Source: Salinigranum rubrum
Lineage (GTDB): Archaea > Halobacteriota > Halobacteria > Halobacteriales > Haloferacaceae
NCBI RefSeq assembly: GCF_002906575.1
Contig: NZ_CP026309.1
Coordinates: 62,001 to 126,000 of the forward strand
DNA length: 64,000 nucleotides
Reading direction: 5' to 3'
Shown: positions 38,584-40,975 of the stretch, piece by piece
Position numbering within the stretch: the first letter of the stretch is position 1
Layout of the letters: each line of letters starts with the position of its first letter
The notes under the pieces: model-generated
What the model was told of the DNA's origin: nothing
Seen by the model: only the letters and a program-made list of their open reading frames with translations
The model's database searches: none
Made by a program: the position numbers and the translations under genes

Positions 38584-40833
38584 TCAGTCCGTATCGTCGC
38601 CTTTCGATGTCTCGACGCCGCGTATCTCGAACCGCGCCCCACCAGCCTCGCTCTCGGTGACGGAGAGTTCCCAGTCGTGGGCCATCGCGATCTGTTGGAC
38701 GCTCATCAGCCCGAACCCGGACCCGGCGGGCTTCGTCGTGTACCCCAACTCGAACACGCGGTCGCGCTCGCCTTCGGGGATGCCGGGGCCGTCGTCGGCG
38801 ACGTAGAAGCCGCCTCCTTCGTCGAGCATGCCGAGGGTGACGGTGACGGTCGATTCACCGTGTTCTCCGCCCTCCTCGACGGCGGCCGCATCCTCCCCCT
38901 CCGGGCGGCCGTTCGTCGAGTCGTGTTCCACGCTGTCCTCGCGAGCCTGCGAGCGAGGGCTTGTCGAGCCGTGCTCGACACTGTCGTCGGCCCATGGCCG
39001 ACTGCTCGTGGAACTGTGTTCCACGCTGTTACGAAAGAGGTTCTGCAACAGTCGCATCAGCGCCTGCTCGTCGGCGCGAACGGGCCGGACGCCCTCGACG
39101 CGGAGCGTCGCCTCGGGGGTGTCGATCGTCGTCCAGACCGTCCGCGCGACGCGACCGATGTCGACGACGCTCTGGTCGCCGACGAGGCTCCCCTCCCGCA
39201 TGACCGTCGCGAGGTCGTCGACGAGCGCCTCGACGCGGGCGAGCGACTCCTCGGCCGCGTCGAAGTGTTCGTCCGCCCCCGTTTCGCGGGCCAGTTGCAG
39301 ACGGCCTCGAAGCGCCGCCAGCGGCGTCCGGAGGTCGTGTGAGAGGACGTCGCCGAACGTCTCGATCCACTCCGTCCGCTGGTCGAGTCGTCGCTCGGTC
39401 GCCTTCTGCTCGCCGATGTCGCGGAAGTACACCGACAGCCCCGTCTCGGAGGGGTACAATCGGACCCGAAACCACGCGTCGAGCGGTGGGTAGTACTCCT
39501 CGAACGCGACCGTCTTCTGGGTCTCCATGGCGCGCTTGGCTTCCCGTTCGAAGACGGTGTCGACCTCCTCGGGGGACGTCTCCCAGACGCACGTTCCGAG
39601 CAGTTCCTCGACGGAACGACCGGCCAGTTCCGCGGCCCGTTCGTTGACGTACGTGTAGCGCCATTCCCGGTCGAGCGCGAAGAACGCGTCCGACACCCGC
39701 TCGAACACCGCCTCGTTCTCCCGCCGCGTCTCGACGTGCTCGGTTACGTCCTCCTGGAAGCCGACGAAGTTCGTGACCGTCCCCTCGTCGTCGCGGATGG
39801 GCGAGATCAACACCCGGTTCCAGAACGCCGTCCCGTCCTTGCGGTAGTTGCGGAGTTCGACCGACACGGGTTCCTCGTTGTCGATCGCCTCCCGCATCGC
39901 CGCGACGGACTCGGAATCGGTCGCTTCGCCCTGGAGAAATCGACAGTTCTCCCCGAGTATCTCCGACTCGGTGTAGCCGGTCAACCGCTCGAACCCCTCG
40001 TTCGCGTAGACGATGCCGTTGTCCGAAAGCGACGGGTCGGTCACGACGATACCGAACGGTGCGGTCTCCATCGCCCGACTCCTCACGAACAGGTCGTGCT
40101 CGCGGCGCTCGTCGGCCGAGATGTCCCGGACGGTACAGACGAGTTCGTCGCCGGCGGTCCGCGAGACGGCGACGTCGGCGAGCAACTCCGTCCCGTCGCG
40201 CCGACACATCAGCACCTCGCCCGTCCACTCCTCCTCGGCGAGGGTCGGTCGGATCTCCGTCTCGAACGTGTCGTCGACGAAGAGGTCCGCCGCTCTCCGT
40301 CCGACCACCCCCTCGTCCTCGTATCCGAACGTCTCCGCGAACGCGTGGTTGGCGTAGGTGACGGCCCCGCCGGACCCGACCAGAGCGATGCCCTCGCGGG
40401 CCGTCTCGATGGCGTCGATTCGCTGTCGCAGGGCGCGCTCGCTCCGATGTCCCGTCACCAGGTTCTCCACCCGGTTGGCGAGGACGGTGTACTGCTCCAC
40501 CCCGCCGCTCTTCTGGAGGTAGTCGCTCACTCCGGCCGAGATGGCCTTGGCGGCTATCTCCTCCGACCCCCGTCCGGTGAACAGCACGAACGGGAGGTCC
40601 AGCCACCGCTCTCGGACCGCTCGAAGCAGGTCGAGTCCCGTCTCGCCGGGCATCTCGTAGTCCGAGACGACGCAGTCGAACTCCTCCGACTCGAGCCTGT
40701 CGAGCGCCGTCGGTACGTCCGACACGGTCTCGACCGTGAAATCCCCCTGTTCTTGCCGTAAGAACTGGGCGACCATCTCCGCGAACGCCATGTCGTCGTC
40801 GACGTGAAGGAGACGTATCGAGCGGTCATTCAT
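38584..40833 (-). CDS. Receiver-PAS-LOV-PAS histidine kinase (putative blue-light sensor)
   Basis: The 749-residue protein has a receiver domain (about 5-120, phospho-acceptor Asp58), a PAS domain (about 140-240), a LOV-type PAS (about 250-365), a third PAS (about 375-475), HisKA (His499 in LSHDLRTPL) and a HATPase with N-box Asn598/Asn602 and VADDGPGIP. The LOV motif is GENCRFLQG with Cys297; Asn329, Asn339 and Gln360 occupy the flavin-contacting positions. A triplicated SVEH-ST repeat (603-648) is inserted after the N-box. The start MNDRSIRLLHVDDD follows a TATA-like ATAATA. Its partner regulator is unknown. Confidence 0.9.
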   Translation of the reverse strand: MNDRSIRLLHVDDDMAFAEMVAQFLRQEQGDFTVETVSDVPTALDRLESEEFDCVVSDYEMPGETGLDLLRAVRERWLDLPFVLFTGRGSEEIAAKAISAGVSDYLQKSGGVEQYTVLANRVENLVTGHRSERALRQRIDAIETAREGIALVGSGGAVTYANHAFAETFGYEDEGVVGRRAADLFVDDTFETEIRPTLAEEEWTGEVLMCRRDGTELLADVAVSRTAGDELVCTVRDISADERREHDLFVRSRAMETAPFGIVVTDPSLSDNGIVYANEGFERLTGYTESEILGENCRFLQGEATDSESVAAMREAIDNEEPVSVELRNYRKDGTAFWNRVLISPIRDDEGTVTNFVGFQEDVTEHVETRRENEAVFERVSDAFFALDREWRYTYVNERAAELAGRSVEELLGTCVWETSPEEVDTVFEREAKRAMETQKTVAFEEYYPPLDAWFRVRLYPSETGLSVYFRDIGEQKATERRLDQRTEWIETFGDVLSHDLRTPLAALRGRLQLARETGADEHFDAAEESLARVEALVDDLATVMREGSLVGDQSVVDIGRVARTVWTTIDTPEATLRVEGVRPVRADEQALMRLLQNLFRNSVEHSSTSSRPWADDSVEHGSTSPRSQAREDSVEHDSTNGRPEGEDAAAVEEGGEHGESTVTVTLGMLDEGGGFYVADDGPGIPEGERDRVFELGYTTKPAGSGFGLMSVQQIAMAHDWELSVTESEAGGARFEIRGVETSKGDDTD

Positions 40834-40975
40834 TATTATACACGTGGGATACGGATCTGATATGCGTTGTGGGGGTTCGTTCGACGTTTCGGTCGACTTT
40901 TCCACCGCTGTGGGGTCTGCGGTCGACCGGTGGACCGATCACGACGGTTCGGTTCGGCGCGGAGTGCCGACCCCA

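Follow-up and report, generated by a model that had tools for sequence, protein, structure and literature searches.

A putative blue-light LOV histidine kinase of Salinigranum rubrum with a coding hairpin array, possibly kept by template switching, in its ATPase domain

The stretch of Salinigranum rubrum DNA analysed here (64,000 nucleotides of contig NZ_CP026309.1, hereafter the window) contains a histidine kinase gene on its minus strand, the features of which are listed in Table 1. According to its open reading frame and translation, the gene starts with an ATG at 40833 and ends with a stop at 38584, exactly where the earlier note had placed it. A GTG further upstream, at 40905, would lengthen the product to 773 aa, and coding on the plus strand is ruled out by stops in that frame. 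Shortly 5' of the ATG, positions 40876-40902 hold a 12-nt direct repeat (TTCGGTCGACGT, 2.2 copies). Downstream of the kinase gene, in convergent orientation, lies a CinA-like gene, and upstream of it a helicase gene, both named from their translations; this pair encloses the kinase gene in all four genomes of the genus.

Table 1. Features of the kinase gene and of its hairpin array, in window positions
Feature	Position	Strand	Description and evidence
Histidine kinase gene	38584..40833	minus	749 aa, REC-PAS-LOV-PAS-HisKA-HATPase; ORF and translation, Pfam, syntenic orthologues L014-L016
Receiver domain, residues 9-111	40501..40809	minus	Pfam Response_reg, E 2e-21
First PAS domain, about residues 140-238 (approximate limits)	40120..40416	minus	Pfam, three PAS stretches
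LOV domain (second PAS), about residues 253-366	39736..40077	minus	Pfam, sequence search, AlphaFold/Foldseek
Codon of the putatively photoactive Cys297 (GENCRFLQG)	39943..39945	minus	aligned to YtvA Cys62
Third PAS domain (PAS_4), residues 377-477	39403..39705	minus	Pfam
HisKA domain, residues 495-541, phospho-acceptor His499	39211..39351	minus	Pfam
N box NLFRNSVEH, residues 598-606	39016..39042	minus	motif and homologue alignment
HATPase_c match, residues 651-738, with G1 (DDGPGIP) and G2 (GSGFGL) boxes	38620..38883	minus	Pfam
Hairpin repeat array	38887..39024	minus	starts at the N-box end; units of 15 and 16 codons, then a decayed third
Hairpin A1 GTGGAACACAGTTCCAC	39008..39024	minus	7 bp, 3-nt loop, perfect
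Hairpin B1 GTCGGCCATGGGCCGAC	38986..39002	minus	7 bp, 3-nt loop, perfect
Hairpin A2 GTCGAGCACGGCTCGAC	38963..38979	minus	7 bp, 3-nt loop, perfect
Hairpin B2 CCTCGC(tcgcaggctc)GCGAGG	38937..38958	minus	perfect 6-bp stem, 10-nt loop

The receiver, the three PAS, the HisKA and the HATPase matches all exceed their Pfam cut-offs, and the protein has what a histidine kinase needs, that is, a HisKA domain with a phospho-acceptor histidine and an ATPase domain with N, G1 and G2 boxes. The acceptor of the receiver is Asp58, which is present in nearly all aligned homologues of the family. No helix-turn-helix was found in the kinase by Pfam; unlike the bacterio-opsin activator Bat, whose output is a C-terminal helix-turn-helix, this protein has a kinase as its output. 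At the whole-protein level it stays below the NCBIfam cut-offs of YtvA_fam (179.8 of 250 bits) and BluLightHisKinLov (159.8 of 450 bits), and what it has in common with these families is the LOV domain, without membership of the whole protein.

The second PAS domain has the hallmarks of a LOV photosensor. As the earlier note had read, it contains the motif GENCRFLQG, here at residues 294-302 with Cys297 as the adduct-forming cysteine, and Asn329, Asn339 and Gln360 occupy exactly the flavin-binding positions. All 11 checked pocket positions of YtvA (T30, N37, N61, C62, R63, Q66, R79, N94, N104, F119, and Q123) are identical. In sequence searches the domain matches the YtvA LOV domain (4gcz, 2pr5) with an E value of about 1e-35, the closest solved LOV domains being those of YtvA, Meiothermus, aureochrome, and phototropin. 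Its AlphaFold model (pLDDT 93.9) likewise has LOV domains as the top Foldseek PDB matches (TM about 0.9). Judged by sequence and model together, the LOV assignment is far beyond chance. A relative at E 1e-100 or better occurs in 40 of the 148 genomes of the family, and the cysteine and the flavin pocket are retained in most aligned family homologues. The sequence, the residues of the pocket, the predicted fold, and a related domain found photoactive by experiment support the proposal, also made by the earlier note, of a blue-light kinase with an N-terminal receiver; its LOV domain is very probably photoactive. As a LOV kinase the gene is ordinary, with the same architecture recurring across the family.

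The earlier note held that photoactive LOV kinases of archaea are little studied, which is only partly true, since the LOV domain of a haloarchaeal three-PAS kinase was characterized in 2025 (PMC12202551). That study covers 28 LOV sequences from archaea, many of which also contain receiver, PAS, and kinase domains, and it reports LOV proteins that combine a receiver with a histidine kinase from archaea of Lake Diamante; its ALovD-1, the second of three PAS domains in a kinase of the Halonotius type, undergoes a photocycle in up to 3 M salt. The present protein, a haloarchaeal kinase with three PAS domains of which the second is a canonical LOV domain, is a further member of this kind; ALovD-1 itself derives from an incomplete metagenomic ORF. 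The photoactive ALovD-1 is assigned to Halonotius (PMC12202551), and two kinases of H. roseus (L047) and H. pteroides (L048) have LOV domains 71% and 62% identical to the present one. However, these two have another HisKA type (RILRHNLRN) and no VEHGST array was seen in them, whereas the window kinase has a clear receiver and an array. The LOV domains of B. subtilis YtvA and of Brucella LOV-HK have the LOV fold and flavin pocket in common with it. YtvA has STAS as its output, Brucella LOV-HK is a kinase of a different type, and neither is known to have an N-terminal receiver.

On blue light, Cys297 would become linked to the FMN of the LOV domain in the usual thioether adduct. The third PAS domain would relay this change to HisKA, with its His499, and to the ATPase domain, altering the PAS-HisKA coupling, and the N-terminal receiver would act as a phosphate sink or a second input. 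This photochemistry, together with signal polarity, output partner, and physiological role, is what we infer from a domain content and a pocket that can be seen directly. Alternatively, the second PAS domain may be a relative of LOV that binds flavin but is insensitive to light or senses redox state, and the kinase no light sensor in the cell. The cysteine is indeed lost in three aligned family homologues (L016, L028, and L035). In L016, a syntenic orthologue from the same genus, the motif is GENHRILQG (Cys to His) and Asn339 is replaced by Ser; the CinA-like and helicase neighbours common to all four genomes mark L016 as a true orthologue. Photochemistry was probably lost once within the genus, in L016, and LOV activity is therefore not to be taken for granted across the group. 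Among the four further strong LOV-like matches in the genome, three keep the cysteine and the fourth (L005) has proline instead. For the window kinase, the canonical state of every checked pocket position and the photocycle of a related haloarchaeal LOV domain (PMC12202551) make a light-insensitive domain rather improbable. L005 (G000:C1:829502-829834) is a paralogous LOV-like kinase with the motif GKNPRHLQG and a VEHGST array of its own, and L002 (G000:C1:252848-253174), one of the three matches that keep the cysteine, is a Bat-like protein with a canonical LOV motif (GRNCRYLQG) and a helix-turn-helix-like C-terminal end. Within the window, a weaker second PAS match (L006, 21338-21640) is a non-LOV PAS domain in an 871-aa frame.

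The most unusual feature of the gene, overlooked by the earlier note, is a hairpin repeat in its ATPase domain. Directly after the N box there are tandem units of 15-17 codons (V-E-H-G-S-T...), each with two DNA hairpins, typically of 7-bp stems and 3-nt loops. The insert in the window kinase reads N-S-V-E-H-S-S-T-S-S-R-P-W-A-D-D / S-V-E-H-G-S-T-S-P-R-S-Q-A-R-E-D / S-V-E-H-D-S-T.... The starts of hairpins A1, B1, and A2 are spaced 22-23 nt apart. The number of hairpins with 7-bp stems and 3-nt loops in the window (16) is ordinary compared with simulations (7-19), and these three are the only ones that stand in an evenly spaced row. Tandem Repeats Finder did not detect the array in the window, presumably because its copies are too divergent. 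Units of 45 nt have the consensus GTGGAAC-ACG-GTTCCAC-GGGCA-GTCGGAC-TGC-GTCCGAC-GACGCC, with two 7-bp stems and 3-nt loops; in the 48-nt class the second hairpin has a 6-bp stem and a 10-nt loop, and in the 51-nt class a stem of about 10 bp and a 3-nt loop. From the N box through the G1 box, array-free kinases mostly have 34-36 aa, each unit adds about 15 aa, and the longest segment reaches 135 aa. Because of the insert, many family alignments break near residue 608, right after the N box. In the AlphaFold model, array residues 612-662 are predicted to form a disordered loop right behind the N-box helix. In L170, L172, and L173, where the segment between N box and G1 is up to 135 aa long, a second long insert of non-VEHGST type (PDEAPNPGVRRPVPDATDGGTPG) follows the array.

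The arms of the array are constrained at the DNA level, silent sites included. In 38 distinct 45-nt units, 94.5% of the stem cells pair, where shuffles give an expectation of 82.6 ± 0.9% and slid partners one of 23-46%; these units are related by ancestry, and such pairing figures are not probabilities from independent samples. Two-sided changes in the stems number 78 compared with 27 ± 5 in shuffles, a value reached by none of 500 shuffles, and the position pairs with the highest mutual information are the stem pairs. The silent third positions of Val and Ser pair as G-C in 63 cases and as C-G in 30, versus 5 and 5 mismatched (Fisher 9e-16; 7e-4 on unique sequences). When the codons of 73 45-nt units were redealt within columns with the protein fixed, the expected pairing was 0.846 ± 0.012 in hairpin A and 0.761 ± 0.014 in hairpin B, whereas 0.961 and 0.914 were observed, and the difference survives the removal of units more than 85% alike. 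The 48-nt units (n=22) have the same pairing excess; in the 51-nt units (n=12) the excess is clear for hairpin A and modest for hairpin B (0.892 vs 0.808 ± 0.024).

The array also changes in number and place. Four syntenic orthologues with flanks 64-77% identical have 3, 2-3, 4, and 0 units, the one without the array being L016. Genome G064 contains two kinases that have an identical 48-nt unit between flanks of only 38% identity, and a non-orthologous kinase of a congener, with flanks 40% identical, has a unit that matches the 48-nt unit of the window at 94% identity. In coding orientation, the loop of hairpin A is inverted in frame in L166 (ACG to CGT) and L265 (ATG to CAT), both of which change VEHGST to VEPCST; these two are the only clear A-loop inversions. 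The B loops of identical stems are not enriched in reverse complements (1 of 32 pairs). L265 has two 51-nt units with mutually inverted loops in both hairpins (ATG/CAT and GGT/ACC).

Arm homogenization with spacer inversion is the signature of template switching between inverted repeats (PMC8604942), and such switching can reportedly give rise to stems and maintain them (PMC8794818). The array arms are homogenized in the way expected of such quasipalindromes, and the two in-frame loop inversions, few as they are and with no enrichment among B loops, may point to template switching. We put the chance that the array is a product of mutation, a coding minisatellite that recombines, is driven by its hairpins, and lies in a disordered loop, at somewhat better than even. 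The account as a whole, in which a blue-light kinase carries a minisatellite kept by template switching, has a probability of roughly 60%, and the array is its weaker part. In this scenario, the codons at the end of the N box (VEHG) would supply half of hairpin A, and tandem duplication in the tolerant loop would have built the array, which would expand and contract likewise. Template switching between the arms during DNA synthesis would be the main process that keeps the hairpins near-perfect and would at times flip their loops, and recombination at the conserved N boxes of paralogous kinases would spread the units. Selection would remove frameshifts, and the host would tolerate an insert that lies in a disordered surface loop and has a length of a multiple of three. 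While arm covariation, copy-number differences between orthologues, sharing between non-orthologous kinases, loop inversions, and placement in a predicted disordered loop are seen in the data, template switching as the driver and the absence of a benefit at the protein level are presumed. Against template switching, selection for a DNA hairpin would yield the same arm covariation; moreover, A-loop inversions are few, B loops lack the enrichment, and the third unit in the window has decayed.

The main rival is that selection acts on the hairpins as such, because they serve as a signal for recombination or mobility. They would then be a hotspot for, or the target of, a structure-specific nuclease, transposase, or recombinase that relocates and diversifies kinase sequences, and the array would be a site-specific mobile or diversifying element. 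The B stems pair even where their sequence has changed fully (CCTCGC/GCGAGG, CCTGAC/GTCAGG, CCTCCT/AGGAGG, and ATCAGAACGC/GCGTTCTGAT), which fits recognition of structure rather than sequence, and units have spread between paralogues and occur across families of the order. An exact 17-mer (GTGGAACACGGTTCCAC) was found in 37 of 195 genomes and 21 of 67 genera of the order, and its reversed control in none. Degenerate matches to hairpin A on either strand, only part of which were read as loci, occur in 222 of 392 genomes and 59 of 96 genera of the order, the control again giving none. In outgroups of the phylum outside the order, matches are scattered and mostly non-palindromic. However, all 20 exact 17-mer loci that were read lie in frame within arrays at kinase N boxes, unlike elements that enter many genes; no partner enzyme was identified, and mutation alone could account for both arm homogenization and loop inversion. 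Selection for the DNA structure is possible, but we consider it unlikely. The palindromic elements of Rickettsia are in-frame palindromic repeats in protein genes that enter many unrelated genes. The array resembles them in its in-frame palindromes, but its copies as read are tandem and confined to kinase N boxes. A mobile element in viruses was considered as well and rejected: the 17-mer is present in seven viral contigs, but in unrelated contexts and with stops in that frame. It is tempting to speculate that haloarchaea have a self-perpetuating DNA-structure repeat, driven by hairpins and not by a classical transposon, that is targeted to kinase N boxes, moves between paralogues, keeps its hairpins at the expense of the protein, and continually remodels the ATP-binding domain of sensory kinases, but we hold this wider idea to be unlikely.

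Still less likely is that the repeat is selected as protein; copies of the N-box end VEHG would then tune the kinase, and codon use would produce the DNA symmetry as a side effect. The units do stay in frame throughout and look like the last part of the N box, but much of the pairing is lost when codons are redealt with the protein fixed, the region is predicted to be disordered, and one orthologue has no array. Furthermore, the amino acid changes themselves follow base pairing, as in S-R..D-D versus N-R..G-D and in R..R, D..R, A..R, and P..Q in the 48-nt class. That the hairpins are kept as mRNA folds, which might make translation slower or shield the transcript, is the least probable explanation: the arms pair in 89-99% of cells and covary, but where a conserved RNA stem would tolerate G-U above A-C, G-T cells are rarer than A-C cells (18 vs 46; 10 vs 33 in a second count) and so give no sign of mRNA-stem wobble, a scarcity to which codon bias may contribute. 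A stem in an antisense RNA could still be involved, as A-C on the coding strand is G-T on the other.

Perfect inverted repeats within protein-coding genes have been described in the mitochondria of Nematomorpha (PMC6649704). Those palindromes are long (up to 284 bp) and lie in conserved protein regions, whereas the hairpins of the array are short and in tandem, occupy a disordered loop at a single site in a family of paralogous kinases, and are common to paralogues. With template-switch quasipalindromes (PMC8604942, PMC8794818) it has in common arm homogenization and, in a few cases, a loop inversion able to alter amino acids, but those are dispersed over yeast genes or concern RNA-gene stems, while the array is a standing, multi-copy feature across an archaeal order. 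We found no description of VEHGSTS or of repeats in haloarchaeal kinases in the open-access literature. While the LOV kinase is one more well-formed example in a recently characterized group, the array matters more, as a natural case where the symmetry of the nucleic acid, and not protein function, appears to dictate some of the protein sequence, and this in many paralogous kinases across the order. The long-standing question whether perfect hairpins with compensatory changes require selection, or whether template switching can produce and preserve them by itself, thereby becomes directly testable in laboratory haloarchaea. The array is also a warning that arm covariation in a coding region need not imply a functional RNA.

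Related arrays are carried by plasmid-borne kinases in named records of Haloferax alexandrinus, Haloferax lucentense, Natrinema thermotolerans, and Salinigranum marinum. Arrays of the 16-codon type are also found in L185 and L186, which belong to another kinase subfamily with an N box ending in VENAVEH, and the repeat is therefore not restricted to the FENLFRN subfamily.
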